Source of the DNA: Nitrosomonas communis | GTDB lineage: Bacteria; Pseudomonadota; Gammaproteobacteria; Burkholderiales; Nitrosomonadaceae | NCBI RefSeq assembly: GCF_001007935.1 | Contig: NZ_CP011451.1 | Location: forward strand, 3,100,001 to 3,164,000 | Direction: 5' to 3' | DNA: 64,000 nt | Shown: piece by piece, positions 5,926-22,831 of the stretch | How the letters are laid out: each line of letters opens with the position of its first letter | Position numbering within the stretch: the first letter of the stretch is position 1 | Program-made: the position numbers and the translations under genes | Notes under the pieces: generated by a model | The model's database searches: none | Seen by the model: the letters and a program-made list of their open reading frames with translations, nothing else | What the model was told of the DNA's origin: nothing

Positions 5926-7347
5926 CTACAGGGCGCGTACTTTTACCGTCTTGCCTTTGACCTTGCCCGCGGACAATCTGCGCACAGCTTCACGGGCGAT
6001 ATTGCGTGCGACAGCGACGTAGGTTGATTGATCAGTCACAGTGATTTTGCCGACTTGCTCACACGTAAAACCTGCTTCACCAGTGAGCGCACCCAGAACA
6101 TCGCCGGGGCGGATCTTTTCCTTACGGCCGCCGAGTATTTGCAATGTCACCATGGGTGATGCCAGTGGGGTAGTGCTATCACTTGGCAGCGTAGCCAGGT
6201 CGTGCCATTCTGGTTCGAAGCCCATCATTCTTGCTATCACCTCTACCCGGGGCATTTCGGACGGGCTGCACAAGCTTAATGCCCAGCCGTTTTCATCGGC
6301 ACGGCCCGTGCGGCCAATGCGATGGATATGGATTTCCGGTTCGGGCGTAACCTCGACATTAATGACTGCTTCGAGTCGTGAGATATCCAGGCCACGTGCG
6401 GCCACATCAGTTGCAACCAATACTGAGCAACTGCGATTGGCAAACTGGATCAGCACCTGATCACGCTCACGTTGTTCCAGATCGCCATTCAAGGTCAGCG
6501 CATGAATGCTCTGCGCCTGCAACACTTCCAACAGATCACGGCATTGCTGCCTGGTATTGCAAAACGCCAGCGTACTGGCTGGCCGATAATGCCTGAGCAA
6601 CTGACCCACAGCCTGCAAACGCGTCTCATGGCTTACCTCGTAAAAACGCTGGCGTATCTTGTTTTCCTCATGCTGCTCCAGCAGTTTTACTTCCTGTGGA
6701 TTACGTAAGAATTGTCGCGCTAATCCCGCGATACCTGCGGGATAGGTGGCCGAGAACAGGAGGGTTTGGCGCTTGGGCGGGCAGCGTTTTACGACGAAAG
6801 CCATGTCATCGTAAAAGCCCATATCCAGCATGCGATCAGCTTCGTCAAGCACCAGGGTATTGAGTTGTGTCAGATCCAGACTGCCACGCGCCAGATGATC
6901 CATGATGCGGCCGGGAGTACCGACGACAATGTGGGCACCATGCTCCAGGCTGGCCATCTGTGGACGCATGGTACTGCCGCCGCACAAGGTAATAATTTTG
7001 ATATTGTCTACTGATCGTGCCAGCCGGCGAAGCTCCTGCGTGACCTGATCTGCCAGCTCGCGCGTTGGACACAGCACCATGGCTTGTACTGCAAAGCAGC
7101 GTGAATTTAGCCTGGTAAGCAGCGACAACGCATACGCTGCCGTCTTACCACTCCCCGTCTTTGCCTGCGCGATCAGGTCGTGTCCCGCGAGCGTAATTGG
7201 TAAACTGGCCGCTTGAATCGGCGTCATCGTCAGGTATTCAAGCTGCTGTAATGTTGCCAGTAAGCCGGGCGATAGCGGCAATTCGTTAAAAAGGCGCCCG
7301 ACAGAGTTCACTGCGGACGAAGAGGTTGTCTGGATAGTATTATTCAT
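5926..7347 (-). CDS. dbpA: ATP-dependent RNA helicase DbpA
   Basis: A DEAD-box helicase of 473 residues from the ATG at 7347; the frame's first codon upstream is a TTG. It shows a Q-motif region (LTMTPIQAASLP), Walker A AQAKTGSGKT, PTRELA, DEAD (LVLDEADRMLDMGF), SAT (LLFSATYP), and the helicase C motifs VATDVAARGLDI and HRIGRTGR. The last 75 residues (VTLQILGGRKEKIRPGDVLG to the end) are the DbpA RNA-binding domain that docks on hairpin 92 of 23S rRNA. This tail separates DbpA from RhlE and SrmB. Role: ATP-driven remodelling in 50S subunit assembly. It is monocistronic and flanked by family 2 palindromes. Confidence 0.93.
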   Translation of the reverse strand: MNNTIQTTSSSAVNSVGRLFNELPLSPGLLATLQQLEYLTMTPIQAASLPITLAGHDLIAQAKTGSGKTAAYALSLLTRLNSRCFAVQAMVLCPTRELADQVTQELRRLARSVDNIKIITLCGGSTMRPQMASLEHGAHIVVGTPGRIMDHLARGSLDLTQLNTLVLDEADRMLDMGFYDDMAFVVKRCPPKRQTLLFSATYPAGIAGLARQFLRNPQEVKLLEQHEENKIRQRFYEVSHETRLQAVGQLLRHYRPASTLAFCNTRQQCRDLLEVLQAQSIHALTLNGDLEQRERDQVLIQFANRSCSVLVATDVAARGLDISRLEAVINVEVTPEPEIHIHRIGRTGRADENGWALSLCSPSEMPRVEVIARMMGFEPEWHDLATLPSDSTTPLASPMVTLQILGGRKEKIRPGDVLGALTGEAGFTCEQVGKITVTDQSTYVAVARNIAREAVRRLSAGKVKGKTVKVRAL

Positions 7348-7434
7348 CCGCAATTATCCCAGATATCAGCGGAATACGCATAGAATTGTATGGTCGGCAG
7401 AAATAGTGATGCAAAACACGTTGCCTTAGTCCGC

Positions 7435-7521
7435 GTAAGGCGCAATAACCATCGGGCATTGCACCGTATGTGCTACCTTACCATCTGGTGCAATGCGCTG
7501 CGCTTATTGCACCTTACAAGC
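7435..7521. repeat. Nested palindrome, family 2, copy 2
   Basis: The ends GTAAGGCGCAATAA and TTATTGCACCTTAC are inverted repeats. An inner pair CATTGCACC and GGTGCAATG gives a second stem. It is nearly identical to 9000-9087 and related to 5532-5615. It lies upstream of dbpA and runs straight into the HsdS-like remnant. Confidence 0.85.
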
Positions 7522-7523
7522 TG

Positions 7524-7700
7524 GTGTCGCGAGACACCAACAACGAACCCGTCAGCGTGTTGTTGGAACGTATCCGATTGAGCCATGCAGAAAATGCAGC
7601 AAAATCGCAACGTCCCCGCCGCAAGGCGCATGCCAAGGATGCCGTATTTGCGCCAGACCTGCCATCAGGGCAAGTTAGTGTGCTAGAGGAATCCTTATAG
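7524..7700 (+). pseudogene. Probable remnant of a type I restriction specificity subunit (HsdS) C-terminus
   Basis: The forward frame reads DTNNEPVSVLLERIRLSHAE, then a basic stretch (KSQRPRRKAHAK) and ends in SVLEESL. The pattern D-x-N-x-EP-[AV]-x-x-LLERIR followed by a Lys/Arg-rich tail is typical of HsdS C-termini. No target-recognition domain, hsdM or hsdR is present, and the frame joins a family 2 palindrome at its 5' side. I read it as the tail of a lost type I system. This is from memory of the family and not from an alignment. Confidence 0.45.
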
Positions 7701-7749
7701 AATCGAGGTTGCATGCCAGCGGCTGCAGGCTACCGCAAGGATGCGTTGC

Positions 7750-8208
7750 TCATGGTCTGAAGCGGGAGTCAAACTTGAATGGGCGTACGATGTTCATCGT
7801 GACGCTGGTAAAGTCCGGGTGGTGAGGATTGATCATGATATTGCTTGCTTCCGGTATGACTACTGACGGAATGATGAGGCCTAACTGCTTCCCCTTCATG
7901 AGAAAGCCGCTGCCCAGGCTGGCGGCAGCAACTGAGCTAGGTAATTCATTCCATCCAGCCGGTAAGGCCGCGAGGGCGGGTGTCTCGTATAGCGTGGCAT
8001 CATCTGGCAATTCAATCAGCACCAACACCAGATCAGCCGGAAGAATATCGCCAGTATGGATCAGTTTTTCCAGCGCGGCGATCTCGGGCGTCAGGCCAGC
8101 ATAGATGGCATGCATGCCAGCATTATTCCAGCGCCCGCCATGCCGATATGCGCCTGTTCCGCTTCGATCTAGAGCAAATTTGTGCTTGGCGATGCGCCAA
8201 GCCCGCAT
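7750..8208 (-). CDS. RES-domain toxin
   Basis: A 152-residue RES-family protein. It starts MRAWRIAKHKFA and has the conserved Arg near the N-terminus, GTGAYRHGGRWNNAGMHAIYAG with the Arg/Tyr of the active cleft, a central Glu in EIAALEKLIH, and the C-terminal NPHHPDF segment with its Ser/Asn partner. RES toxins of the Xre-RES type II systems degrade NAD+. The start codon overlaps the stop of the upstream antitoxin gene (ATGA), so translation is coupled. Length and order (antitoxin first) are typical. Confidence 0.88.
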   Translation of the reverse strand: MRAWRIAKHKFALDRSGTGAYRHGGRWNNAGMHAIYAGLTPEIAALEKLIHTGDILPADLVLVLIELPDDATLYETPALAALPAGWNELPSSVAAASLGSGFLMKGKQLGLIIPSVVIPEASNIMINPHHPDFTSVTMNIVRPFKFDSRFRP

Positions 8209-8693
8209 CAGACTGCGCCGCCATGGGCAATGGCTGACAGAATCCGCCGGACTTCAGCGGAACCGGCATCGGTATCCAGCAAGGACAAGGGAGATTCGCC
8301 CAGTACCAGATTGTTGCTTAGCATCCATTGTTTGGCCAGCTCCGCCGAGCCAAACACCTGTTCTGCTTCTGCCTCGATCAGCGCAATGCGCGTGAGCCGC
8401 TCTGATTCTGCTGATCCCAGCTTGTCGCCTGCTTTAATTTTGCGGTCTGCCGTGGCGCTCGATAAACCGATAATCCTGGCCAGTTTGGCGCGCGGCATTT
8501 CATAATATTCGCTGGCTTTGACCAATAGCATTGCATCGACGCCTGCCCGAATCAGACGTATTCTTTCGCCAGCATTGCTTTTGAGAATTTTCTTGCTCCA
8601 GCGTGAAAATTCCTGGCTGGGGCTTGTACGTTCACTAGTTTCTGCGGCGACAGGAGTAACCAGTTTTTCTTTTGCTGCGCGTGTTGTTTCCAT
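8208..8693 (-). CDS. Xre/MbcA/ParS-type antitoxin (DUF2384) of the RES toxin
   Basis: The N-terminal region is helix-rich (EYYEMPRAKLARIIGLSSAT, an HTH-like segment), followed by the ParS/DUF2384 toxin-binding part (LTRIALIEAEAEQVFG ... AKQWMLSNNLVLGESPLSLLDTDAGSAEVRRILSAI, cited in pieces). The ATG at 8693 is preferred over upstream ATGs at 8711 and 8726 because AAAGGTG lies 5-6 bases before it. That choice also leaves two palindromes just upstream as operator candidates. The 4-base overlap with the toxin gene fits a co-transcribed, autoregulated toxin-antitoxin operon. The protein is expected to bind DNA and neutralise the NAD-degrading toxin. Confidence 0.85.
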   Translation of the reverse strand: METTRAAKEKLVTPVAAETSERTSPSQEFSRWSKKILKSNAGERIRLIRAGVDAMLLVKASEYYEMPRAKLARIIGLSSATADRKIKAGDKLGSAESERLTRIALIEAEAEQVFGSAELAKQWMLSNNLVLGESPLSLLDTDAGSAEVRRILSAIAHGGAV

Positions 8694-8705
8694 GAAGTCA
8701 CCTTT

Positions 8706-8739
8706 ACTCATTTGAGTAATGATCATAACTCAATTGAGA
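8706..8739. promoter_or_regulatory. Candidate operator: two related palindromes
   Basis: ACTCATTTGAGT (8706-8717) and CTCAATTGAG (8729-8738) are near-identical palindromes 22 bases apart centre to centre, about two helical turns. They sit immediately upstream of the chosen antitoxin start. This is the expected position for antitoxin-mediated autoregulation; binding itself is inferred. Confidence 0.6.
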
Positions 8740-8757
8740 GATTCTATCTTGATAAGT

Positions 8758-8961
8758 TCACGCGAACGCCGCAAGCGCTGCTTTTAGCCACTCGAAGCCT
8801 ATGCATTCCTGTTCAAGCCGCAGATTCTTGTGCAAACGGTACTCGCGCAAATCATCGTACAACGCTTGCTCTGCCGGCGTCAGGCGCGGCAGGTCGCGCT
8901 GGGTTAGTTTGGTTTCCGTGCCCCAGTGTGCTGCGAACGCCAGCAAGGTCCCGTGATCCAT
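8758..8961 (-). CDS. Small hypothetical protein or gene fragment
   Basis: A 67-codon frame, MDHGTLLAFAAHW ... LKAALAAFA, predicted to be mostly helical and rich in Leu, Glu and Arg. No ribosome site is obvious and I recognise no family. It lies between the toxin-antitoxin promoter and a family 2 palindrome, in a patch that also holds gene remnants. It may be the tail of a lost gene. Confidence 0.3.
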   Translation of the reverse strand: MDHGTLLAFAAHWGTETKLTQRDLPRLTPAEQALYDDLREYRLHKNLRLEQECIGFEWLKAALAAFA

Positions 8962-8999
8962 CAGGAATGGCGCGCATGCGGAAACTTAACACAACCCGC

Positions 9000-9087
9000 G
9001 TAAGGCGCAATAACCATCGGGCATTGCGCCGTATGTGCCTCACTTCACCATCTGGTGCAATGCGTTACACTTATTGCACCCTACCAG
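9000..9087. repeat. Nested palindrome, family 2, copy 3
   Basis: GTAAGGCGCAATAACCATCG at the left and CTTATTGCACCCTAC at the right, with the same inner CATTGCGCC/GGTGCAATG pair as copy 2 at 7435. Copies 2 and 3 bracket the HsdS-like remnant and the xre-res operon. Confidence 0.85.
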
Positions 9088-9092
9088 TTATA

Positions 9093-9881
9093 TTATGAGT
9101 CTGACTGCTCGCCAGCCATTTCTCTTTCAGAAGCGACCGGCTTCCCGCCAACAATTTCTATTTCCGAGACATATGCCATAGAACTCAGGCCACTCTGGCC
9201 AAAAGGATTACTCATCAATAACCGTTCACTATAATGAATTTTTGCCATTACCCCTGCTTGCAGACTTATGACTGCAAAATTATATAAATCATGATCATCG
9301 ATAAAAAAATGACGAAAGCTATTGCCGCTACTTCCCATCTGCACTGTCATGAAATAATTTCTATGTCCATTTTTATTCTCAATGACATTGACTATTCTGC
9401 CAAACTCAACACCACGGGAAATTTCCTGATCATTCGTATTGATGTCTCCAATAAAATGCATTTGATCCAATCCTTGATTTTCCCCAACCGAATGGATGGC
9501 GACTAATTCTTTAGTGGCAGAACAAGAAAGCAGTTCATTACTTTTGGGTGTTTTGAATTCAAGCACAACGTAATGACCGATGAGATTTTCAACTTCTTCA
9601 TAACGGTCTTTTTTAAAACAAAACTCCCATGGATTAGAAACTAAATTAGGAGGTTGATTGCCAACACTGGTGAAAGTGGTACTGTCATGGCCCAGTAAGA
9701 TGTCGCCTACGTAGGCGCTGCCAGAAGTTCTTTCCAGATTCACCGTACTCAATCTGCCATAAATATAGCCTTTATTATCAATAAATAGAGTTTCTGCAAA
9801 AACCAGTTGAGGAAGTAGGGCCAAAATCAAAATCCATAACCAGAGAAAAGTAACTGAATGGGGACTGCAATATTTTTTCAT
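9093..9881 (-). CDS. Hypothetical exported protein
   Basis: 262 residues from the ATG at 9881. A clear signal peptide (MKKYCSPHSVTFLWLWILIL ... LVFAE) is followed by a beta-rich domain starting TLFIDNKGYIYGRLSTVN. Internal segments such as LIGHYVVLEFKTPKSN and GRIVNVIENKNGHRNYFMTV suggest an OB-like or beta-sandwich fold. I do not recognise the family. The C-terminus is polar (EREMAGEQSDS). It probably acts in the periplasm or outside the cell. It is monocistronic and borders a family 2 palindrome. Confidence 0.65.
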   Translation of the reverse strand: MKKYCSPHSVTFLWLWILILALLPQLVFAETLFIDNKGYIYGRLSTVNLERTSGSAYVGDILLGHDSTTFTSVGNQPPNLVSNPWEFCFKKDRYEEVENLIGHYVVLEFKTPKSNELLSCSATKELVAIHSVGENQGLDQMHFIGDINTNDQEISRGVEFGRIVNVIENKNGHRNYFMTVQMGSSGNSFRHFFIDDHDLYNFAVISLQAGVMAKIHYSERLLMSNPFGQSGLSSMAYVSEIEIVGGKPVASEREMAGEQSDS

Positions 9882-10021
9882 TATGCCCTTTCGCAAAAAT
9901 GCTTAAAGTATATTTTGGATATTAAAATTAGTGAGTCATAACTTTATACTGAGAATCTTGAACACAAGCTGAACAATCTAAAGTGAGAGAACATGCTTAC
10001 TTTGCTAGATGACTTATTTTT

Positions 10022-10112
10022 CTTCCAAATCAAATCTGACTTGGTCGGCTTCACCTTGCCGTATGATTGATACCGTCTGTGGCTCGCATTCACATCAAGA
10101 TTGGTTGGAAAA
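10022..10112. repeat. MITE-like repeat, family 1, copy 2
   Basis: A 90-bp copy in the opposite orientation to copy 1: CTTCCAAATCAAATCTGACT, then TTGGTCGGCTTCACCTTGCC and TGTGGCTCGC, ending near TTGGTTGGAA. It lies in the region upstream of the ferritin-like/LodA-like operon, about 260 bases before its first gene. Confidence 0.75.
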
Positions 10113-10371
10113 TGACATAACACGCGAAATACTCAAGCAACCAATAGCTTAAGAACTTTGTCATGAAACTATTTGTCATGAAAAGAAATGTTACAGCAAG
10201 GAACCAAGCGGACCTTGCGTTCTTCCATTAAACTGGTTAGCATGCACAATCTTTTTAGTTTATAGACAAGAAACCAGGCTCATGGCGATGCCTGCGCCGC
10301 GTTTCTAACTGTCTTCTTCCTTAACCTAACTGCATACCCGATATGGATATGCTTTACTCGAAGGAGAAGTA

Positions 10372-11904
10372 ATGCGTGCTGCACAGATTCTTCGCCATTT
10401 TGCCACGGATGGTAAACTCCTGCCCCATGCGGCACTCAGGCTTGCCAAGGCAGAAACCCTGCCTTCCTCTGCTTTACTCAACCTTGAATTTTCTCCGCGT
10501 GATTACATCGCGTTTCTGCTCTCAATCGATGCTGAAATCGAACATTGTTTGATGGTGCAGTACTTGTATGCTGCTTATTCCCTCGGTGGGCCGCAGGTGC
10601 CGCCGGAATTTCGTGACGCAGTGCGTAGTTGGCAGGAGGTCATTCTCGGCATCGCCAAGGAAGAAATGGGGCATTTGATTTCAGTGCAGAATATCCTGCG
10701 TTTGATTGGTGCGCCGCTGCATATGGAGCGCGAGGATTATCCGTGGGATGTACCGTTTTATCCTTTCCCGTTCATGTTGGAGCCTCTTACGCTCGATTCG
10801 CTGGCTAAATATGTCTATGCTGAATCACCGGTGGATTGGGATGGGGGTGAACTGGGCGATGAAATCCGGCGACGGGTCGACTCGCAAACTTCAAGCCCTC
10901 ACCAGGTATCGGAATTATTCAATACGCTGATTCCACTGGTCAAGGATCCGAATTATCTGCCGGATGAAGCATTTCAGGCCGATACCTACCCCTGCCAGGC
11001 CAATTGGGCTGAATGGGGACGTGGTTACCAGGGGGGTAACCGGGGCAATAGCATGGGAGCTCAGCCAGCCAGTACCCCTGATGTCCTGGTGGCACCGGTC
11101 ACCTGCCGGGATGATGTCGTTAACGCGCTCACCGCCATTGCGCAGCAAGGCGAAGCGACTTCGGGTTCAGACCCTTCACATTTTGTGCGCTTTCTGCGTA
11201 TCTATGTCGATATGCGGGAAAAAATGACGCAGCAAGCCTGCGACACCTGCCTATGGGATCAAGCGCGCCCGGCTGATTTTTCCGAAGAAAAATGGAATCA
11301 ACTGTATCCCGCCGCACACCTCGGCTATCATGCCAGCGCTGCACCCTGGTCAGCTTCGCGTAAAGTGGCCATCAACCCTTTTGTCTCGCTTGATCCGAAT
11401 AATGACCCTGCGTTGAGCAACAGCCCGACCACTCCCATTACCCATCCCGAATCAGCGCTGTGGGCGACCCTGCACAACCTGCGTTACCGTATGCTGTTGA
11501 ACTATTTAATCCATAGCTTCACGTTATATGGCGGCTTGAATGTGGCCGGTTTGATCACGCCGCGCGGTACTATTGTCAATGCAACATTTGGCGAAATGTA
11601 TAACCTGCGTGCGATTTCAGAAATCCTGATGCAGTTGCCGGTTTCAGCCACTGATCCGAAAGCGGGCTTCGCTGGTCCACCGTTCCAGATGCCGTATACG
11701 CTGAATAGCCCATTCGGAGAAGCCAATCGCTGGAGAGCTCACCTGGATTTGTTGAGCGCCGCGGAAAATTTAATTGCAGCGCTATTTCGACTTGCCCCAC
11801 CTGAACGTCATCCGTTTTTATCGACCTTACGTGAAGCTGACAAAAATATGATGCAAATAGCGACCCGCATCCTGTCCGGCGATATCGATCGTGCACTGCT
11901 TTAG
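10372..11904 (+). CDS. Ferritin-like (iminophenyl-pyruvate dimer synthase/VioB-type) protein, first gene of the CTQ-like cluster
   Basis: A 510-residue protein with a ferritin-like di-metal helical core near the N-terminus: SIDAEIEHCLMVQYLYAAYS (residues 51-70, E55/E57/H58) and ILGIAKEEMGHLISVQN (E98, H101 of an ExxH motif). Further helices occur at NLRYRMLLNYLIHSFTLYGG and FGEMYNLRAISEILM. This is the domain found in VioB/RebD/StaD-type proteins of bisindole pathways, but no tryptophan oxidase or other indole-pathway gene is present. The start has a strong ribosome site (AAGGAGAAGTA). The next gene begins 6 bases after its stop, so it is co-transcribed with the LodA-like genes. Inference: an iron-dependent oxygenase or oxidase-like partner of the quinoenzyme, or a maturation factor. 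Confidence 0.75.
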   Translation: MRAAQILRHFATDGKLLPHAALRLAKAETLPSSALLNLEFSPRDYIAFLLSIDAEIEHCLMVQYLYAAYSLGGPQVPPEFRDAVRSWQEVILGIAKEEMGHLISVQNILRLIGAPLHMEREDYPWDVPFYPFPFMLEPLTLDSLAKYVYAESPVDWDGGELGDEIRRRVDSQTSSPHQVSELFNTLIPLVKDPNYLPDEAFQADTYPCQANWAEWGRGYQGGNRGNSMGAQPASTPDVLVAPVTCRDDVVNALTAIAQQGEATSGSDPSHFVRFLRIYVDMREKMTQQACDTCLWDQARPADFSEEKWNQLYPAAHLGYHASAAPWSASRKVAINPFVSLDPNNDPALSNSPTTPITHPESALWATLHNLRYRMLLNYLIHSFTLYGGLNVAGLITPRGTIVNATFGEMYNLRAISEILMQLPVSATDPKAGFAGPPFQMPYTLNSPFGEANRWRAHLDLLSAAENLIAALFRLAPPERHPFLSTLREADKNMMQIATRILSGDIDRALL

Positions 11905-11910
11905 GAGATA

Positions 11911-13329
11911 ATGATGCCCATTCTGGAATTACGTATTCTGCCGCCCTTTGCCATTGCCCGCTTAGGGGGTGCCGCCGAGCCGCTGGAAGCCTTCGAGCTG
12001 GAAACCAATCCGGGTAATCCCTTTGATTACCGTCGTATCGTACCGCGTCCCAGTTTCCAGGTTGACCCAGAAAGCGGTGAAATTACGTGTTGTTATGTGC
12101 CGGAGAGCATTCGTTTTAAAGATGATAACCAACTGGTACGGCCAGTCGCCCCGTTTCTCGAAGTGTATGCCCGCACCAGCCATCAGCCCGATCAATTAGT
12201 ACCGCTGACAGTCGATTTGCTGAAAGCTGAAAATTTGACGTTGCAAGCTGTGCATTGGAAAGTGGAACTCGGCAATATTAAAATTTACCGCCGTACCAAT
12301 GATCAGAATGACAAGATTTATGCCAAAATCAGCCAGTTAAATGATCATAAGCTCCATCCAATCAAGGGTGAATGCGCCAATTTCCTACCCAACAAAACGC
12401 TGCCCCTTGGCCATGTGCAATTCATCAAGCCCACTGAATGCTTTCCAGAAATACGCCTGCGTTTCACACCTGCCAAAGGATTAGTGTATGGTGCCAGCCT
12501 GAAGCGCCATATTTCAGACACTGAGGTGGAAGATGATCCGGTGTTCATTCACAATGAAGACCTGATTTTATACGATTGCAATAAAGGTTCCTGGCGCGGC
12601 TATAAGGAAAATCTCGGGCCGGAACTGACCATGCCCGCCCAGATCTATGCCGGCTACAACGATGATGCCGGCAATCATGTCAGTTGGGGTTATTTCGATG
12701 ATGAATGTGATGGGGTGGTCCGCGTCATATTGAAGCTGGCCGATGGCAACGAATTGCGGGCGCAGGGGCATATCGGTGCAGGGCCGCCCGCCTATGCACC
12801 GGATACTCTGCCCGTTCGTGTCATTTCGGATGAAATGGAGCAGATTCTATATGGACCAAGCGTAGCTGAGGAAGAAGTCTCGCTCGATGATGCAACAGAA
12901 CTGGTGTTGCGCGCGCTGGAATCGGTGCGCCTGATGAATACGGCCGTAATGAACGGCAACCCGGTAAATGGCCGCCTCAATACCGCAAGCACCATGGTGC
13001 GGCAAAATACCAATGATTTTGAGCGTTACTATGAACCCATCGCCGCGAGCTCGCTGGTGGATAATCTGGCATTGCGTGCGTTGCATGAACGTGTATTCAG
13101 CGCCCTGACGGCTGGAGGGGCGCCCTGGTTTCCCCAGTTGTTGCGCCAGCCGGAAGAAATCGGCGATTTGTCCGCCAAGGGTTTGCGCAAGATGCCTGCC
13201 TTGATGCGCGGCGCGGATGGGCGCAGCCTGACGCTGACACGGCGTCATATCGATATGGTGACCAAAGCCGCAAAAAATGCAATGTTTGCCGCTGCTAATC
13301 CAACCCATAAGGGAGCTAAAGATGAATGA
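11911..13329 (+). CDS. LodA/GoxA-like protein, N-terminal/central part (split)
   Basis: A 472-residue protein. It opens LELRILPPFAIARLGGAAEP, resembling the 'P-x-GIARVGN' opening of LodA-type L-amino-acid oxidases. At residues 250-315 it has SWGYFDDECDGVVRVILKL, then GAGPPAYAPDTLPVRVISDE, which resembles the LodA block 'GWYDDTSDGPV ... GPPNFAP ... TLYD'. No signal peptide is present. The next gene starts inside its last codons (ATGAATGA, 8-base overlap). Together the two products total 746 residues, close to the single-chain LodA length of about 726. I infer that the CTQ oxidase is split here into two subunits. The substrate is unknown. A divergent homologue without quinone cannot be excluded. 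Confidence 0.65.
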   Translation: MMPILELRILPPFAIARLGGAAEPLEAFELETNPGNPFDYRRIVPRPSFQVDPESGEITCCYVPESIRFKDDNQLVRPVAPFLEVYARTSHQPDQLVPLTVDLLKAENLTLQAVHWKVELGNIKIYRRTNDQNDKIYAKISQLNDHKLHPIKGECANFLPNKTLPLGHVQFIKPTECFPEIRLRFTPAKGLVYGASLKRHISDTEVEDDPVFIHNEDLILYDCNKGSWRGYKENLGPELTMPAQIYAGYNDDAGNHVSWGYFDDECDGVVRVILKLADGNELRAQGHIGAGPPAYAPDTLPVRVISDEMEQILYGPSVAEEEVSLDDATELVLRALESVRLMNTAVMNGNPVNGRLNTASTMVRQNTNDFERYYEPIAASSLVDNLALRALHERVFSALTAGGAPWFPQLLRQPEEIGDLSAKGLRKMPALMRGADGRSLTLTRRHIDMVTKAAKNAMFAAANPTHKGAKDE

Positions 13330-14146
13330 GAAGAAAATGACCCCTGCCCTCAGTGCCAGTAATCTGACGGCGCAAATCCATCATCGTGGCGCCGGTAACC
13401 CGGCCTCAGTGTTGCCGCGTAGCGCGATTTCAAATTGTTTCCCTGGTCTGGAATTTGATTATCGTAATGTCTGGCGACGTGCTTTTGAAGGCATTGTGCT
13501 GATCGAAAATAATAATTATGTGATTGCAGCTGAAGATCCCAAATACGATGATTTGGTGACACGGCGTTTATTGCGTTTTGCGGGGCTCGATGCGATGGTG
13601 CCGACCAGCGGCCCGGTGTTTCCAGACGGCGATTCCAGCACGCTCGCTACCGGCACTAACCCTAATGCGGTATCGTTCATGGAATGGTCGAATTCATTAG
13701 CACGCATTATGCATCTGCAAGGGCAAATGGTTGAGTGTGAATTCACCGCGCACAAGCATGCAGATACGGAAGTACTGGCTGAGGGCACAGAAACCATCAA
13801 AGTGCCACTCAAATTACGCGTATTTTTCACGCCCAATACTGCCGCGCTATCAGAAGATCTGCTGCAACCGGGTGAATTGACGCAGGGTTTGTGCTCGCCA
13901 TGGCAGAATGATTACCGCGAATGTGCCTGCTATTATTGGGCGGCCAGCCGACCGGATTATGTCAATGTAGAAGTGGGTTCCGATGGTTTGAGCCAGGGCG
14001 ATATGTGGTTTGCCAAAAAGCGTACTGGTAACTATATTCCTGACAATCGAACTGATACACGACTTTGGTCGTACGATGATTTATTCATGGCCTGGCAACA
14101 ACATTTGCAATTCATCATTCGGGGAAAGGATGCGGATAAGTCTTAA
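13322..14146 (+). CDS. LodA/GoxA-like C-terminal part, candidate CTQ-bearing subunit
   Basis: 274 residues from the ATG at 13322 (GGGAGC ribosome site), overlapping the previous gene by 8 bases. The segment at residues 184-215 (GELTQGLCSPWQND, YRECACYYWAASRPDYVN) resembles the LodA-family block 'GDLT ... PWQ-D-x-x-x-C ... FWPAR-P-x-x-V', which carries the Cys that cross-links to a Trp to make cysteine tryptophylquinone. C201 is the best candidate Cys. The partner Trp could be W206, W229, W250 or W258; I cannot decide without an alignment. Another notable block is ISNCFPGLEFDYRNVWRRAF (36-55). It sits directly before the radical SAM and flavin monooxygenase genes, both plausible cofactor-maturation enzymes. 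Confidence 0.6.
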   Translation: MNEKKMTPALSASNLTAQIHHRGAGNPASVLPRSAISNCFPGLEFDYRNVWRRAFEGIVLIENNNYVIAAEDPKYDDLVTRRLLRFAGLDAMVPTSGPVFPDGDSSTLATGTNPNAVSFMEWSNSLARIMHLQGQMVECEFTAHKHADTEVLAEGTETIKVPLKLRVFFTPNTAALSEDLLQPGELTQGLCSPWQNDYRECACYYWAASRPDYVNVEVGSDGLSQGDMWFAKKRTGNYIPDNRTDTRLWSYDDLFMAWQQHLQFIIRGKDADKS

Positions 14147-14189
14147 TAATCGATTGACACCGCACATCACCCTTTTGGTGGATTAGACC

Positions 14190-15599
14190 ATGACCACCCC
14201 ATCCATGGACGCCAGCTTTACGGCTGCATTCACGCAGCACATTGTGACCGCCTCGCGTCCGCATCATCCTGATGCGCATCTGGTTGAGGATGCGAACGGT
14301 GCGCACTTATTGCTGGTCAACGGCAGCCGCCTTTATCATTTGCCGCCAGAGCTGGCAACTGAATTCCGTGCCGCGTTGCACGATGCCGATGTCCGTGTAC
14401 TGCAAAGCTTGATCGCCTGGCATGGCTTGCAAGCTGCGTCGCTCATTGATGATACACCGCTTGCGCCCCCTCCTATCCACGCGCTCTCGCTGGCAATTGC
14501 ACAAAAATGCAATCTTGGCTGCACCTACTGCTATGCCCAGCAAGGCGAATTTGGCGGCAGGGCAAAAAACATGGAGTTAGCGACTGCACAGCAGGCAGTG
14601 GATCTGCTGCTGGCGAAAGCGGCACCCGGCTCAAAGGTCAATCTGGCCTTCATGGGTGGCGAACCGCTCGCCAATCGCAGAGTCCTTCGCACGGTCACCG
14701 AGTATGCACGAACCCAGGCGGCTCAACGTGACATCCGCTGCCATTTTTCAATCACGACTAATGGTAGTTTATTACAGCGGGAAGACGCTGATTTTTTTGA
14801 GCAGCATGGTTTTGCAGTGACGGTCAGTTTAGACGGACCGGCCGAGCAGCATGATCGCCTGCGCCCGTTCAAAGGCGGCAAGGGTTCATTTGATCAAATT
14901 GTGGCGCGCCTTGCGCCCTTGCTGGAAAAGCAGCGCCAGATGCAAGTATCAGCACGTGTCACTGTCACACCTTTTAATCTGAATTTGCCGCAGACACTGG
15001 ACCTGTTTATAGGTATGGGATTTCATAGTGTCGGTTTTTCACCGTTATTGCGTGCCCCCAATGGACAGGCAGAAATGGGGTCAGACGATATGACTAATAT
15101 GCTGGAAGGAATGATTGCCTGTGGTCTGGCGTTTGAACAACATGTGTTGCGTGGTGAGCGCTACCCTTTTATGAATATGCAGAATGCACTGCGTGAATTG
15201 CAGCGCGGTACCCATCGACCGTATCCGTGTGGCGCGGGGGCTGGGTATTTCGGCGTATCGGCTGAGGGGGAGCTGTCCGCTTGCCATCGCTTTGTCGGCG
15301 ATGCACAAGGGAAAATGGGCGATTTGACGCATGGAGTTGATCCGGCAAGACAAACCCAGTGGCTGGCGGAACGTCATGTACACCAGCAACATCCATGTCA
15401 TACCTGCTGGGCGCGCTATTTATGTGGAGGCGGCTGCCACCATGAAGTATTGGCGCGTGGACGCAGCGCTTGCGACTATATTCGAGGCTGGTTGCATTAC
15501 ACGATCGGCGCACACCAGCGCTTAAACCAATTGGCGCCTGCATGGTTTACTGGTCCTGGGGCCGGGCGCGTGACCGGCGCAGATGATCCCCTCGGTTGA
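14190..15599 (+). CDS. Radical SAM/SPASM maturase, QhpD-like
   Basis: A 469-residue protein. After about 100 residues of N-terminal domain it has the radical SAM cluster motif KCNLGCTYCYAQQG (CxxxCxxC), then FMGGEPLANR (GGE), ITTNGS and VSLDGP. The C-terminal SPASM/twitch region holds many Cys: YPCGAGAGYFGVS, LSACHRFVG, HPCHTCWARYLCGGGCHHE and SACDYIRG. These could bind two auxiliary Fe-S clusters. The sequence style matches the quinohaemoprotein amine dehydrogenase maturase QhpD, which makes Cys-to-Asp/Glu thioether bonds in the QhpC peptide. No small qhpC-like gene is visible, so the likely substrate is one of the two LodA-like proteins. It overlaps the flavoprotein gene by 17 bases. Confidence 0.85.
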   Translation: MTTPSMDASFTAAFTQHIVTASRPHHPDAHLVEDANGAHLLLVNGSRLYHLPPELATEFRAALHDADVRVLQSLIAWHGLQAASLIDDTPLAPPPIHALSLAIAQKCNLGCTYCYAQQGEFGGRAKNMELATAQQAVDLLLAKAAPGSKVNLAFMGGEPLANRRVLRTVTEYARTQAAQRDIRCHFSITTNGSLLQREDADFFEQHGFAVTVSLDGPAEQHDRLRPFKGGKGSFDQIVARLAPLLEKQRQMQVSARVTVTPFNLNLPQTLDLFIGMGFHSVGFSPLLRAPNGQAEMGSDDMTNMLEGMIACGLAFEQHVLRGERYPFMNMQNALRELQRGTHRPYPCGAGAGYFGVSAEGELSACHRFVGDAQGKMGDLTHGVDPARQTQWLAERHVHQQHPCHTCWARYLCGGGCHHEVLARGRSACDYIRGWLHYTIGAHQRLNQLAPAWFTGPGAGRVTGADDPLG

Positions 15600-17061
15600 C
15601 GTCTTTATCATGGGCGCTGGCCCGGCAGGATTGTGCGCCGCCCTGCGCTTACAGCAATTAAATTACCGCGTAGCGCTGGTTGAACGCAGCCCACGCTGGC
15701 CAAGACCTCAGATTGGCGAAGCGTTAACGCCAGGTGTAAAGAACATCATTGATTTCCTCGATGCCAACCAAGCCCTGGAAAAAGTGCCTCATCTCGCACG
15801 TTTACCGACCCGCTTGCGTTGGCAAAGCCACACGCCAGAGATCGTGGCCCATTCAAATTCGGCCGTGGTAAACCGGGCAGCATTTGATGCCGCGCTGTTG
15901 CAATTGGCGCGTGAGCGTGGTGTACAAGTTTATCAGCCTGCCTCCCTGACCAGGGTAAGCGGTCAGGCTGGTGCCTGGCAGTTGAACTTTGCGACTCCGG
16001 CCGGCCAGCAACAGATCCAGGCTTGCTTCATTCTGGATGCACGCGGCCGCAGTCCGCAACATATCGCGTGTGCGCCGCGTTTATCAGCTAGTTGGGTCGA
16101 GCTTGCCCATACTGATATACCCGTTGGACTAGCCCACCTGACGCAAGTAGAAGCCGTCGAACACGGCTGGCTTTGGGGTACACATCTACCCGACAAACGT
16201 TACCGTGTGATGCTGCTGTGCGACCCGGCCACGCAACATCAATTGATGCCAGGTCGCCCCGAAGTATGGCTACGTGCAAATTGTGCCTCCAGCCAGTTAT
16301 TCACGGCTATCGCCGAGCTGCCGTTTGCGGGCCGCTTACAGGCTTGCTCCGCTACGCCCTATCTGGCGTATGACAGTTGGCAGGAAGGTCGCTTAAAGCT
16401 CGGCGATGCGGCCTTTGCATTAGATCCTATTTCATCGTCTGGAGTGGAAAAAGCAATGCGCTTTTCCCTGCAGGCGGTGATTGCAATTCACACTGTCCAT
16501 CATACTCAACAAGCCTCGCGCCATGAACTGGCACGTGAGTTTTTCCAGCGGCGTTTAATTGAAACCTGTGCACGACATAGCTTATGGACGCAACGGTATT
16601 ACGCGCAAGTCTGGTGTAGCCACCACGCATTCTGGCGTGAGAGGGCCGTGCCTTATCCCGATACGCTCAAGTTAACTGCGGATGCCAGCACCCATGCACT
16701 ATTCGATGCGTTGCAGCAGGAATTTGAGCATCTGCAAAACTATCGCCAGCCGGAACTGAAGCGGCAGCCTTTTTTACGCGAGCATCAAGCGATCCGGTTT
16801 AGTCGCGATGTGAAAGTCATCAAAGCACCATGTGTGATGAATGATCAAGTGCAACTATGGCCCGCATTGCAGCATCCGCATTTGGAATCTCCCCTTGCAT
16901 TTTTGGAAAATGAGGCCTTGCTGCCACGTCTAGCTATCTTATCGCACCAGCCGACGCTGGCCGCAGTGCTGGGTATACTCAGTCAATCGATGAGTATTCA
17001 CAAAGCACGGCGCTTGCTGGAGTGGCTGTGGCAGCGTGGCTTGCTGGAAGCCACCCACTAA
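15583..17061 (+). CDS. FAD-dependent monooxygenase, LodB/QhpG-like
   Basis: A 492-residue flavoprotein of the tryptophan-halogenase/PHBH-like fold. The N-terminus is VDVFIMGAGPAGLCAALRL (dinucleotide GxGxxG) followed by the acidic strand end ALVERS. The second FAD motif is LGDAAFALDPISSSGVEKAM. In the lod and qhp systems such monooxygenases (LodB, QhpG) hydroxylate the precursor Trp during tryptophylquinone formation; halogenases carry a WxWxIP motif, which I do not see here. Translation is probably coupled to the radical SAM gene (17-base overlap). It is the last gene of the operon, followed by about 70 bases of gap. Confidence 0.8.
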   Translation: MIPSVDVFIMGAGPAGLCAALRLQQLNYRVALVERSPRWPRPQIGEALTPGVKNIIDFLDANQALEKVPHLARLPTRLRWQSHTPEIVAHSNSAVVNRAAFDAALLQLARERGVQVYQPASLTRVSGQAGAWQLNFATPAGQQQIQACFILDARGRSPQHIACAPRLSASWVELAHTDIPVGLAHLTQVEAVEHGWLWGTHLPDKRYRVMLLCDPATQHQLMPGRPEVWLRANCASSQLFTAIAELPFAGRLQACSATPYLAYDSWQEGRLKLGDAAFALDPISSSGVEKAMRFSLQAVIAIHTVHHTQQASRHELAREFFQRRLIETCARHSLWTQRYYAQVWCSHHAFWRERAVPYPDTLKLTADASTHALFDALQQEFEHLQNYRQPELKRQPFLREHQAIRFSRDVKVIKAPCVMNDQVQLWPALQHPHLESPLAFLENEALLPRLAILSHQPTLAAVLGILSQSMSIHKARRLLEWLWQRGLLEATH

Positions 17062-17133
17062 ATCAGGCAGGTTCTGTTAGAATCTGTACTCACATCAGTA
17101 TTATTTTATTAACTCTGCTCAGATTATAACAAT

Positions 17134-17631
17134 TTGAATCATATCCATATTTTTACCGACGGCAGTGTCAATACCCAATCAAAAACAGGGTATGGTGCTT
17201 ACTTTGCGATAGCTGACTTGGTTACGCCGATAGAAACGCTAAAAGATGCAGTGAAAGTGAAGCGCTTTGAACAAACCAGCTCGACTAAATTGGAATTGCA
17301 AACGTTGTTATGGGCGCTAAATGAAACGTATGAAACCATTAACTTAACTGATGCTGGCGATATGCCTTTGGTGATTTATACCGACTCACAAAATATTATG
17401 AGTCTGCCAGAGAGGCGAGCCCGTCTTGAACACAATCATTTTTTCTCAAGTAAAAACAAGCCACTGAATAATTATGAGCTCTACCAGGAGTTTTACCGCT
17501 TGCATGCCAGGCTCAATTGCAGGTTTATAAAGGTGGCAGGTCACTCAGCCTCTCACCAGAAAGATGAGATTGACAAACTGTTCAGTTTGGTTGATCGCTC
17601 ATCCAGGCGTGCGTTGCGAGAAAATCGTTAA
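17134..17631 (+). CDS. RNase H-like protein
   Basis: A 165-residue RNase H fold. It shows HIFTDGSVNTQSKTGYGAYF (first catalytic Asp), KLELQTLLWAL (catalytic Glu), VIYTDSQNIM (third Asp) and KVAGHSASHQKDEIDKLFSLVD (the His loop and final Asp). All four carboxylates of an active RNase H are thus present. It is diverged from housekeeping RnhA, which suggests a mobile or accessory paralogue. The frame begins at a TTG (17134) and no strong ribosome site is visible, so the start is uncertain. A broken copy of its 3' half lies at 5645-5884. Confidence 0.8.
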   Translation: MNHIHIFTDGSVNTQSKTGYGAYFAIADLVTPIETLKDAVKVKRFEQTSSTKLELQTLLWALNETYETINLTDAGDMPLVIYTDSQNIMSLPERRARLEHNHFFSSKNKPLNNYELYQEFYRLHARLNCRFIKVAGHSASHQKDEIDKLFSLVDRSSRRALRENR

Positions 17632-17712
17632 TCCATGATGTAGAGAGTGGATAAAGTATGTGAAAAGAGCAGGCTCTCATTGGAACATAAGTTTCTACTC
17701 CCTGTCTTATTT

Positions 17713-17770
17713 CATTCCAGCTCAAAATTGACTTGGTTCGCTTCACCTTGCCTGATTCGGAAACGGAATG
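17713..17770. repeat. MITE-like repeat, family 1, copy 3 (internally deleted)
   Basis: Keeps CATTCCAGCTCAAAATTGAC, TTGGTTCGCTTCACCTTGCC and GGAAACGGAATG, but lacks about 45 bp of the interior seen in full copies. It lies between the RNase H-like gene and selO. Confidence 0.65.
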
Positions 17771-17839
17771 ATTCGCTTAGCGCTTAGCAATTTCCGTTTT
17801 GACAGATATTGTCGGATTAAATGAATACAATAAGATCAC

Positions 17840-19321
17840 ATGAACCCAGATAGAAAATATGCGAAGGACAGCGTCGGCTGGCAGTTTGATAACAGCTATG
17901 CCCGTTTGCCAGAATTTTTTTATGCACGTCTGAACCCAGTGCCAGTGCGCGCTCCACAGTTAGCGATGTTGAATCATACGCTCGCAGCATCGCTTGGACT
18001 GGATTTCCACATGCTATCCGAAAAAGAGGCTGCCTTGCTGTTTGCAGGTAATGTGCTGCCTGAGGGATCAGAGCCTATTGCGCAAGCCTATGCTGGCCAT
18101 CAATACGGCCATTTCACTATGCTCGGTGATGGGAGAGCAATATTGCTGGGTGAGCATCTTACGCCCACAGGGGACAGATTTGACATCCAGCTAAAAGGTT
18201 CTGGTCAAACCCGATTCTCACGGCGTGGCGATGGCCGCGCAGCACTGGCGCCGATGCTACGTGAGTATCTCGTCAGCGAAGCAATGCATGCATTAAATAT
18301 TCCCACTACGCGCAGTCTTGCCGTGGTCACCACTGGCGAGTCAGTCATACGCGAAACCCTGCTGCCCGGTGCGATACTCACGCGGGTGGCTGCCAGTCAC
18401 ATTCGGGTGGGTACGTTTGAATATGTTGCGCGGCTGGGCAATAGTGAAGCGATCAAAATTCTGGCCGATTATACTATCGACCGGCATTACCCCGATGTTG
18501 CCACGGCTGAGAATGCCTACCTTGCGCTGTTGCACAACGTCATACAACGTCAGGCCTCGCTGGTCGCACAATGGATGCTGGTGGGTTTCATTCACGGCGT
18601 GATGAATACGGATAATATGACCATCAGTGGTGAAACGATTGATTATGGTCCGTGTGCCTTTATGGATGCCTACGATCCGGACACCGTTTTCAGCTCGATT
18701 GATCAGCATGGCCGCTATCGCTATAGCAATCAGCCCCTGATAGCACAGTGGAATCTCGCACGTTTTGCTGAAACATTATTACCGCTGCTACACCCGGACC
18801 AGGAGAAAGCAGTCGCGTTGGCGGAAGAAGCGATCCATACTTTCTCCGCTATCTTCCAGCACCACTGGTTAACAGGGATGCGCAAAAAGCTGGGATTATT
18901 TACTGAAGAAGCAGAGGATATTGAATTGATCAAAACCGTGCTGGCATGGATGCAGCAGCATCAAGCTGATTACACTAATACCTTGCGCGCACTGGCCGCG
19001 GACACTATGCCGCAAGATGCCCTATTTCAGAATGCCGAGTTTATGGAGTGGCATGGGCGCTGGCAGGCGAGATTATTGAGCCAGGCCGAGCCCAAGCAGG
19101 CTTCCTTGAGTTTGATGCGGGCGCATAATCCTGCGATCCATCCGCGCAACCACCAGGTTGAAGCGGCACTGGCAGCAGCTACAGAACGGGGTGATTATTC
19201 TCTGCTGCAACGACTGCTGGCAGCAGTAACAGCGCCTTACACCGATGCACCGGAGTATCAGGATTACCGCACTCCTCCGCTACCGTCAGAACGCGTCTGT
19301 CAGACCTTCTGTGGCACTTAA
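17840..19321 (+). CDS. selO: Protein adenylyltransferase SelO (YdiU)
   Basis: A 493-residue pseudokinase-fold AMPylator that transfers AMP from ATP to Ser/Thr/Tyr of target proteins in redox homeostasis. Family blocks are clear: [50 protein letters not shown] (as [10 protein letters not shown]), and [20 protein letters not shown] with the metal-binding Asn/Asp, then [13 protein letters not shown]. The C-terminus reads VCQTFCGT, with Cys where eukaryotic SelO has selenocysteine. Together with the Cys in YGPCAF this fits the regulatory disulfide described for the E. coli protein. The length matches the family. Confidence 0.95.
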
Positions 19322-19341
19322 TTTTATTTGCCGCAAGTACA

Positions 19342-19653
19342 TTATTTCAGGAAGGAGCAGCAATAATCAGTGGGAATTTTTACTTTCATGGTAAATTCAC
19401 TATTCGCGGGTACGTTAAAAGCTTCCCCACCTTTAACGCTTTGCCAACCAGAGGCCGGCAGGCGAACTTCCAGTTCACCGGCCAGGATTTCCATCAATTC
19501 AGGATCAGCGGTATGGAAGGTGTATTCGCCCGGCTGCATGAAGCCCAAGGTTTTTTTGCTGCCGTCGGCAAAAATAAGGGTGCGGCTGTTGATTTTGCCA
19601 TCGAAATAAACGTTGGCTCGCTTGACGACAGTGACATGTGTGAAGTCTGACAT
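19342..19653 (-). CDS. ppnP: Pyrimidine/purine nucleoside phosphorylase
   Basis: A 103-residue protein of the YaiE/PpnP cupin-like family (DUF1255). It shows VYFDGKINSRTLIFADGSKK, TLGFMQPGEYTFHTADPELM, EILAGELEVRLP and GEAFNVPANSEFTMKV, the conserved core of the family. It catalyses phosphorolysis of nucleosides to free base and ribose-1-phosphate. It is convergent with selO, with 20 bases between the stops. Confidence 0.92.
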   Translation of the reverse strand: MSDFTHVTVVKRANVYFDGKINSRTLIFADGSKKTLGFMQPGEYTFHTADPELMEILAGELEVRLPASGWQSVKGGEAFNVPANSEFTMKVKIPTDYCCSFLK

Positions 19654-19693
19654 AACGATGCTTTACGGTTGAAAAATTGGGCATGATAACAGA

Positions 19694-20272
19694 TCAATTC
19701 ATTTTCCGGATCACAAAAAGTCGTGGCGCATGAGGTTTTAGGTAATAGCTCAGCACAGTATCGACCTGAAAATGACGCGGATCAAGTTGTTGACACCATC
19801 TGCTCAGGCGCAGGGTTTCTTCATCGCCGCCCACATGACCAGGATAAGCCAGCACGGTCACAATCCCTTGTGCGGTAAGCAACCGACAAGCTATCTCAAT
19901 AGCTGTCAAAGTCGAGTCGGCTCGGGTAATAAAGCTTTTATTTCCCCCTGGCAAATAGCCCAGATTAAACATAATCACCTGTATCTGGCCGTGGAATGCT
20001 TGCGGAATATGCTCATCCATCAAGGAATGACTGGCGTGAATCAGCGTGACTCTGTGCAGCAAATCCCGCTGCTGCAGTAGCTGTGCGGTAATGTGTATGG
20101 CCTGAAGCTGCACATCAAAACCAAAAACAGTCCCCCTGCCACCGACCAACTGGGCTAGAAAAGTCGTGTCATGTCCGTTTCCGACAGTGGCATCGACTGC
20201 ACTGCCTCCCTGCAGTAAATGCTGGCGAACGATGTGATGCGCTGTTTCAGGCAGAGGGAAAATGCGAGTCAT
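19694..20272 (-). CDS. mnmM: tRNA (mnm5s2U34) methyltransferase, MnmM/YtqB family
   Basis: About 192 residues from the ATG at 20272. The SAM motif is AVDATVGNGHDTTFLAQLVG, then FGFDVQ. The family-typical motif VIMFNLGYLPGGNK follows, as in YtqB-type rRNA_methylase proteins (PF06962), and YPGHVGGDEET lies near the end. In B. subtilis and S. aureus MnmM methylates nm5(s2)U to mnm5(s2)U at the tRNA wobble position. The gene overlaps the 3' end of an upstream FAD oxidoreductase gene, which could supply the nm5 intermediate, so the pair resembles a split MnmC. The gene name is by family resemblance. Confidence 0.8.
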   Translation of the reverse strand: MTRIFPLPETAHHIVRQHLLQGGSAVDATVGNGHDTTFLAQLVGGRGTVFGFDVQLQAIHITAQLLQQRDLLHRVTLIHASHSLMDEHIPQAFHGQIQVIMFNLGYLPGGNKSFITRADSTLTAIEIACRLLTAQGIVTVLAYPGHVGGDEETLRLSRWCQQLDPRHFQVDTVLSYYLKPHAPRLFVIRKMN

Positions 20273-21314
20273 AATAACGCCGCACATGCACGGTGTCGGG
20301 GATGGATGCAGCCTGATTCAAAGCTGCGGCAAATTGCTGCGCATACCAGGGAATGGCCAGGCTGCCTTTGGCACCAAAGCCGTTAAAAATATGCAAGTGG
20401 CGGTAGACTGGATGGGAACCGATAAAAGGCCGTTTATCCTGCGTGGCTGGGCGAATACCTGCCTGATGTTCAACAATCTCAACCGGGTGTAAACCGGGAT
20501 AGACTTCAGTCAAAGCCTGTATCAACTGGTGACGAGCACGCTCAGTAGGTTGCGTATCCAGATTGGTGTAATCAAAAGTCGCCCCTAGCCTGAATTGATG
20601 CGGCTCGGTAGGAATCATCCAATACCCAAAATTGAGAATTCGGATGGGAGAAACTGCCTGGGTTTTACAGTAAAGAATCTCTCCTTTCACCGGTTGGAAC
20701 GGTAATTTACCAAACCAGGGATTGACTGTCCCCTGATGACCTTCGCAAAACACGATGTGCCGTGGCTGCCAATCCTGCCATTGCAAATGCGGCTGGAACA
20801 TGATCTCACGGTAATCTAACCTGGCTTGCCGGTAGCAGCCGTTCGCCACAAAAAAATCCTGCAAGCACTTCAGTAGCTGGCGAATTTTTATATAGCCGGT
20901 CTGCAGCTGCTGCAGCACGCCAAAAGCAGAGTTAATACCAGGAGGGCAAGATGGCTCATCTGTTAAAAATGCTTGATACTCGGCTTGTACCAGCCTTTGC
21001 TGGGCAATATGCCGTTCGTGCTCGCTTTTTAATAAGCGTACCATGGGGATCGGCACAAAAAACTGCTGTTTGAATGCTAACGCCAGTTGTTGGTAGCAAT
21101 CCATGGCAGCCGGCAATAATTGCTCGATTTCAGCAGCTTTGACCAGCCGCTTACCGGTAACTGGATTGATCAGTCCGGCAGCGACCTGCGACGCATTGGT
21201 CTCACCGCTATCGATCACCATGACACGAGCCTGCTGGCGGATCAACTCCCAGGCCAGCAAGCTGCCAGCCAGGCCCTGACCAACAATCAGTACATCAACC
21301 GGCCTGCTTGGCAG
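20247..21314 (-). CDS. FAD-dependent oxidoreductase (DAO family), MnmC(o)-like
   Basis: A DAO-fold flavoprotein of about 355 residues. The nucleotide motif VDVLIVGQGLAGSLLAWEL can only be included if translation starts upstream of the TTG at 21260. After an in-frame stop at 21315-21317 the only start-like codon before the motif is CTG at 21314, so a non-AUG start is proposed. Other blocks are ETNASQVAAGLINPVTGKRL, PVKGEILYC, and GIRPATQDKRPFIGSHP followed by HIFNGFGAKGSLAIPWYA, the DAO C-terminal FAD signature. It overlaps mnmM by 26 bases. Inference: it oxidatively removes the carboxymethyl group of cmnm5U to give nm5U for MnmM. Glycine-oxidase-like activity is the alternative. Confidence 0.75.
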   Translation of the reverse strand: MPSRPVDVLIVGQGLAGSLLAWELIRQQARVMVIDSGETNASQVAAGLINPVTGKRLVKAAEIEQLLPAAMDCYQQLALAFKQQFFVPIPMVRLLKSEHERHIAQQRLVQAEYQAFLTDEPSCPPGINSAFGVLQQLQTGYIKIRQLLKCLQDFFVANGCYRQARLDYREIMFQPHLQWQDWQPRHIVFCEGHQGTVNPWFGKLPFQPVKGEILYCKTQAVSPIRILNFGYWMIPTEPHQFRLGATFDYTNLDTQPTERARHQLIQALTEVYPGLHPVEIVEHQAGIRPATQDKRPFIGSHPVYRHLHIFNGFGAKGSLAIPWYAQQFAAALNQAASIPDTVHVRRYYDSHFPSA

Positions 21315-21651: not shown

Positions 21652-21722
21652 TAAACCATTACTCTAAAAGTGCGTTAATATTAAGGTATTCTGGATGATA
21701 GAAGCTGGCCTGCAAGCGGCAA

Positions 21723-22154: not shown

Positions 22155-22268
22155 TGCTTCCCCTTACTACAAATATATCTGATTGAACAAGTATAGCTTG
22201 AACTTTACAGGGTAATGGAGTTATTCCCAACTCACTATATTCTATTTTTCTATCCATAATCATCCATA

Positions 22269-22825: not shown

Positions 22826-22831
22826 TGCCTT

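Follow-up and report, generated by a model that had tools for sequence, protein, structure and literature searches.

How would a cysteine tryptophylquinone (CTQ) enzyme be made by an operon in which genes for LodA-like proteins stand beside a radical SAM gene and a flavin monooxygenase gene? The question is raised by five genes at positions 10372-17061 of a 64,000-nucleotide stretch of the Nitrosomonas communis genome (contig NZ_CP011451.1, positions 3,100,001 to 3,164,000, forward strand), hereafter called the window. Two CTQ routes have been described, that of LodA, with LodB, and that of QHNDH, with QhpD, QhpG and others. Our analysis suggests that the operon probably encodes a CTQ oxidase of the LodA/GoxA type, whose maturation would depend on a radical SAM enzyme that forms thioethers and on a flavin monooxygenase. 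It is composed of the following genes:

10372..11904, + strand: FER, 510 aa, ferritin-like protein (PF12902), related to the C-terminal part of VioB
11911..13329, + strand: LNA, 472 aa, LodA/GoxA N-terminal half
13322..14146, + strand: LCB, 274 aa from the ATG at 13322, LodA C-terminal half and predicted CTQ-bearing subunit
14190..15599, + strand: SAM, 469 aa, radical SAM/SPASM protein, QhpD-like
15583..17061, + strand: FMO, 492 aa, LodB/QhpG-group flavin monooxygenase

The coordinates of the five open reading frames (ORFs) place them on one strand, separated by 6 and 43 bases at two junctions and overlapping by 8 and 17 bases at the other two, exactly as a preliminary description of this DNA had claimed; the listed ORF of LCB starts at 13277 (289 aa), and the ATG at 13322 gives the 274-aa protein considered here. 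The combination of LodA-like, QhpD-like and LodB/QhpG-like proteins proposed in that description also holds at the sequence level, in Pfam and NCBIfam scores, fold comparison and family hidden Markov models (HMMs). In the records examined, the central genes of the operon are annotated as hypothetical proteins.

Relatives of the operon were gathered in 92 loci, namely 80 loci on genome contigs, the best among 200 relatives retrieved by a pattern scan, and 12 plasmid records, including two from Nostoc. All five genes, whose joint occurrence in other genomes had been left to be checked, are present in 81/92 loci, and 80/92 keep the order FER-LNA-LCB-SAM-FMO, the exceptions being partly contig ends (e.g. 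L114 and L115). The association of the five genes is not due to chance. According to record titles, the best 80 of the 200 scanned relatives are from Pseudomonadota, Bacteroidota, Myxococcota, Planctomycetota, Verrucomicrobiota, Acidobacteriota, Actinomycetota and Gemmatimonadetes, the closest among them being Nitrosomonas sp. Nm34 (97%).

Since the CTQ motif was part of the patterns used in the scan, plasmids were searched with the N-terminal half alone, independently of the motif. This search found 20 records, all with a SAM gene; 19 of them, among which are near copies (Mycetohabitans, Bradyrhizobium), also contain an FMO-type gene and an LCB with the motif C.PW..D...C.C..W. Detection of the flavoprotein by the family HMM is weak in some plasmid loci (3e-5 to 5e-8, the weakest being L033 at E 3e-5), and many of these loci contributed to the HMM or nearly duplicate one another. 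A second, flavoprotein-free class suggested by tblastn was dropped, as the family HMM finds the flavoprotein in 19/19 LCB-bearing plasmid loci. The 20th record (L134, Azospirillum argentinense plasmid p5) retains LNA and a short SAM gene, behind which lies an IS3 transposase; no LCB was detected, and the locus looks decayed. Loci L033-L037 and L136 form a deep group with the order LNA-SAM-LCB, in which LCB is extended by a ferritin-like domain, seen in most of them by annotation or a Pfam match. A survey of the phylum with the N-terminal half yielded 1/398 genomes, namely the window's own, so that the operon is too rare for unbiased phylum sampling. Within its own family, Nitrosomonadaceae, the operon occurs in 2/125 genomes; weak matches came from 20 more (E 4e-6 to 1e-3), and those of their loci that could be read are LodA-type.

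LNA and LCB are the N- and C-terminal halves of one LodA/GoxA-type protein. They form a single ORF in 47/92 loci (L060, L108 and L115 among these hold the N-terminal half in part); the two proteins first described as LodA-like are LodA-like, as hhalign, the HMMs and the fold indicate, and are not two separate proteins. By Pfam alone the match is marginal, with LNA at E 0.003 to LodA_N (17.9 bits, cut-off 26.3) and LCB at E 1.7e-5 to LodA_C (25.0 bits, level with the cut-off of 25); its support comes from conservation and natural fusions, and from HMMs and fold. LNA matches the NCBIfam GoxA model at E 4e-5 (21.5 bits, cut-off 750) and PDB GoxA at E 2.5e-4, and its family HMM detects a canonical LodA/GoxA protein from a plasmid (E 7e-10) as well as the genome's own LodA (E 2e-4). 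The LCB family HMM finds this same LodA at E 3e-9, and an hhalign profile alignment to LodA is restricted to the CTQ region (prob 95.5, E 1.6e-8). At the structural level, the model of a Dyadobacter LNA-LCB fusion (744 aa, pLDDT 79, pTM 0.85) retrieves only GoxA or LodA among all 50 PDB chains at E<=0.001, the best at E 3e-12. On a midpoint-rooted tree of 92 rows (91 loci and the window), built by a quick method, the split or fused state changed at least 4 times, with 2 of these changes imposed by branches of good support, and the split state is that of the five deepest plasmid rows.

These fusions bear on a different reading, in which LCB would be the precursor of a ribosomally synthesized and post-translationally modified peptide (RiPP), the modified peptide would be cut out, and the cluster would yield a small molecule tailored by the VioB-like protein. 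Radical SAM/SPASM enzymes and VioB-type proteins occur in natural-product pathways, and peptidases lie near some relatives of the operon. However, LCB is one of the two halves of a LodA-type protein, joined to the other in the 47 fused loci and conserved along its length, and the flanks contain no protease, transporter or other gene in more than 6/43 name groups. We hold this reading to be very improbable. Because of the fusions, the 274-residue product would be a quinone-bearing enzyme half and not a peptide natural product; of the products first envisaged, the peptide is set aside. A recurrent sixth gene was not found in the flanks, where the best candidate is present in 10/80 loci and 6/43 name groups; it encodes 327-517 aa near the operon (L080:4360-5892 and nine others), and the one copy scanned has no Pfam match.

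The residues expected around the cofactor are located in LCB as follows:

13892..13957, + strand: core motif CSPWQNDYRECACYYWAASRPD, with Cys191, Asp197, Cys201, Cys203, Trp206 and Asp212 each in 93/93 sequences
13436..13438, + strand: codon of Cys39, possible first thioether donor, in 89/93 sequences, with Glu44 and Asp46 downstream

Residues are numbered on the 274-aa protein, the numbers of the conservation alignment being one lower (Cys39 = C38). The CTQ residues of LodA are given as C516 and W581 in the portion of PMC4417212 consulted. When the genome's own LodA is aligned to the PDB sequence, D512 lies in PWQAD, C516 is the next cysteine and W581 is the second tryptophan of WWP; thus placed by alignment, the three correspond to Asp197, Cys201 and Trp206 of LCB. 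Cys201 and Trp206 are therefore the predicted CTQ pair. LCB keeps these residues of LodA, and adds three conserved cysteines and one aspartate that are foreign to canonical LodA/GoxA proteins: in a control set of the latter, a cysteine two before the proline and a cysteine two after the CTQ cysteine were each seen in 0/25 sequences, and an aspartate six after the tryptophan and a cysteine before FPG each in 0/22 readable ones. A fifth cysteine, Cys139, is present in 70/93 LCB sequences.

These additional residues resemble those of QhpC, the QHNDH gamma subunit, whose four cysteines form, according to the text available from PMC8172795, the thioethers Cys7-Glu16, Cys27-Asp33 and Cys41-Asp49 and the CTQ pair Cys37-Trp43. 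With the 1jmx_G sequence as QhpC, both proteins share the spacings Cys to Asp (+6), Asp to CTQ-Cys (+4) and CTQ-Trp to Asp (+6). Cys191-Asp197 and Cys203-Asp212 of LCB are possible thioether pairs, and the residue pattern fits the helper set of a QhpD-like SAM and a QhpG/LodB-like FMO.

The radical SAM protein (Pfam Radical_SAM, E 1.6e-16) has QhpD (TIGR03906) as its best NCBIfam model, with 319 bits (cut-off 453), followed by PapB with 265 (cut-off 340). Its C107, C111 and C114 and seven cysteines of the SPASM region are conserved in 91/91 sequences, in keeping with what SPASM proteins usually show, and an eleventh in 88/91. The FMO protein matches the QhpG model (NF049967) at E 7e-94 with 315 bits, above the cut-off of 240, and scores 117 bits with the LodB model (cut-off 400); a QhpG whose gene is near a qhpC gene reaches 406 bits with the QhpG model. 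As the QhpG cut-off accepts FMO in a genome with no match to the QHNDH gamma subunit (NF037958), automatic annotation may name this protein QhpG. A tree containing one QhpG only did not assign FMO to either QhpG or LodB.

Two of these score series are compatible with another division of labour, in which SAM would make a different cross-link in LCB (sulphur to an alpha carbon, or the cofactor Cys-Trp bond itself), FMO would be a LodB, and the enzyme would be a LodA with an added structural cross-link. SAM also scores with the nif11-type (248 bits) and SCIFF (232 bits) RiPP maturase models, and the FMO family HMM ranks two LodB-type proteins (220 and 168 bits) over the sole QhpG at hand (145). 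Against this, the two top models of SAM, QhpD and PapB, are described in the accessible literature as Cys-Asp thioether makers that join cysteine to the non-alpha carbon of Asp/Glu, and the aspartate partners in LCB are invariant, with QhpC-like spacing. We consider this division of labour unlikely.

FER matches Pfam PF12902 (Ferritin-like, E 5e-26), and hhalign aligns it to VioB residues 599-948 (prob 99.6, E 2e-24); with the full-length VioB model it scores 16.4 bits, far below the cut-off of 1250. Its AlphaFold2 model (pTM 0.85) finds 3hl1 as best PDB fold at E 0.012 only. The residues E57, E97, E98, H101, E151, E261, H270, H381 and E408 are invariant (83/83), and these Glu and His could hold a dimetal site. 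FER or its domain is present in 17/20 plasmid records, three of the 17 being weak and on the opposite strand. In Nostoc and Streptomyces loci the ferritin-like domain and LCB form one chain, and in a further Nostoc its fusion partner is LNA. VioB was also considered for homology of its N-terminal part to LodA, which was ruled out, as VioB has no likeness to LNA-LCB. In L031 (3001-5745), a divergently transcribed gene next to the operon encodes 915 aa, in which BNR-type repeats are combined with a PF12902 domain. Some Oxalobacteraceae genera are known for violacein; among five genomes of this family picked for the violacein reputation of such genera, four (L039, L040, L043, L044) encode a full-length VioB elsewhere.

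Such a near-constant partner, with its fusions and invariant Glu/His, might itself take part in maturation, as a dimetal oxygenase adding oxygen to the tryptophan. The portion of PMC7876137 consulted states that the first Trp hydroxylation in LodA is independent of LodB, which favours this role. The same source reports that QhpG dihydroxylates the CTQ-precursor tryptophan, requires the cross-linked substrate together with QhpD, and alone adds both oxygens in QHNDH, where CTQ gives QhpC a mass difference of about +28 Da; moreover, FER is found in 17/20 plasmid loci, including the three weak and divergently placed ones, versus 19/20 for the flavoprotein. This role of FER seems to us quite unlikely.

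The reading that we prefer remains that of a LodA-type CTQ oxidase served by both helpers. What was observed is the order of the genes, the LodA-type fold with its two halves, the invariant residues and the families of the proteins; the scheme that follows is our inference in all its chemistry, in the precise bonding partners, in the substrate and in what FER does. LNA and LCB would form a two-chain catalytic protein, in which LCB bears the cofactor pair Cys201-Trp206 together with Asp197. SAM would make QhpD-like thioethers on LCB, after which FMO would hydroxylate Trp206, and CTQ would form with Cys201. The mature enzyme may oxidise a primary amine or an amino acid to the imine, with H2O2 if it is an oxidase, and FER may be a metal-binding partner acting on the imine or the peroxide.

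Several observations weigh against this scheme. Conservation within the 80 scanned loci is partly built in, because they come from a scan patterned on the motif. The fusion model superimposes on GoxA/LodA with TM-scores of 0.22-0.33 and a high root mean square deviation, so that domain placement is not reproduced, and its confidence is low over part of the CTQ region. Real QhpD proteins score 777 and 779 bits with the QhpD model, placing SAM, which is under the cut-off, as a sister type and not as QhpD. Judged by its scores, FMO is not assignable to QhpG over LodB; the group first proposed for it stands, and a clear choice of QhpG does not. Cys39 is missing or unaligned in 4/93 LCB sequences. 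Cys203 lies two residues after the CTQ cysteine, versus four for QhpC Cys41, and the Cys203-Asp212 spacing is 9 versus 8. LCB and QhpC do not reach homology by hhalign (prob 1.2, E 0.043), the family HMM finds 1/4 QhpC at E 0.022, and LCB scores 12.2 bits with the gamma-subunit model (cut-off 50); their likeness thus appears as one of motif and not of proven homology, and since sequence statistics do not show homology, shared origin and convergence both remain compatible with it. Finally, no QhpE/QhpF-like leader protease or transporter recurs among the flanking genes.

Going further, one may tentatively imagine a third CTQ architecture, though we would sooner doubt it than expect it: a LodA-type oxidase with three Cys-Asp/Glu thioethers round the quinone, as in the QHNDH gamma subunit, complexed with a dimetal VioB-like subunit that would use its imine or peroxide, the CTQ cores of LodA and QHNDH being of one origin. 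If true, it would provide an evolutionary link between these two cores. The operon family makes testable the need for thioethers in the formation of the quinone within a LodA-type protein, the kinship of the two CTQ cores, and the role of a VioB-like protein next to a quinone oxidase, and it could yield new amine or amino-acid oxidases.

Regarding the genomic context, the same genome encodes, far from the operon, a canonical LodA-type protein (L142:2000-3634), whose gene end is overlapped by that of a LodB-type flavoprotein (3612-4739), and canonical LodA-type genes adjoin the operon in L097, L061, L076 and L026. The GC content of the operon is 0.534 versus 0.442 for the window, and that of the adjacent flanks is also 0.50-0.55; between 6000 and 21000 most 1-kb steps are at 0.50-0.56, with 0.39-0.48 at 9-11 kb and 17 kb. 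Nitrosomonas sp. Nm34 matches window positions 7436-23132 at 95%. As the flanks share the high GC and the Nm34 match spans beyond the operon, no insertion edge is demonstrated; positions 6000-21000 are possibly an island common to Nitrosomonas sp. Nm34. Beside the operon, at 7750-8726 on the - strand, RES-domain and Xre/ParS-type genes resemble a toxin-antitoxin pair. A defence system reading of the operon was dropped, its matches being generic radical SAM (pVip) only. Genes for tyrosinase, multicopper oxidase, DyP peroxidase or cytochrome P460 lie near a few loci. No RNA element was matched by Rfam in window positions 8000-19000, and terminator and promoter counts are close to those in shuffled sequences.

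Compared with known systems, the operon shares with LodA/GoxA the fold matches, the PWQxD...C...W core of the CTQ site, a flavoprotein partner gene, which here lies next to SAM, and the lack of a heme subunit in the operon. It differs from them in a protein usually made of two chains in Proteobacteria, with LodA_N and LodA_C at or below the Pfam cut-offs, extra conserved Cys/Asp, a dedicated radical SAM gene and a ferritin-like protein. With QHNDH (qhpABCDEFG) it has in common a SAM closest to QhpD, an FMO over the QhpG cut-off and four conserved cysteines with partly equal spacings in LCB; unlike QHNDH, the catalytic part is LodA-type, and the operon is without heme alpha subunit, beta-propeller, leader protease and exporter, the search for the heme subunit and beta-propeller covering the operon and not the rest of the genome. 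FER is like VioB over residues 599-948, and unlike it in being without the VioB N-terminal part. The VioB-type protein is indeed present as first described, but the claim that it is foreign to both known systems was too strong, since Campillo-Brocal 2015 (PMC4417212), in the sections available, places a LodA-type protein, a LodB-type flavoprotein and a PF12902 gene close together in fungal lodA loci; the term radical SAM does not occur in that paper. In the open-access literature, subscription papers and preprints being mostly outside this scope, no paper was found that links a radical SAM gene to a protein of the LodA type; PMC7876137, as far as its text was available, contains both terms and compares the known CTQ systems. 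The parts of the operon are ordinary, and their conserved combination appears to be undescribed: a cassette, widespread across phyla, that merges two known CTQ-making routes.

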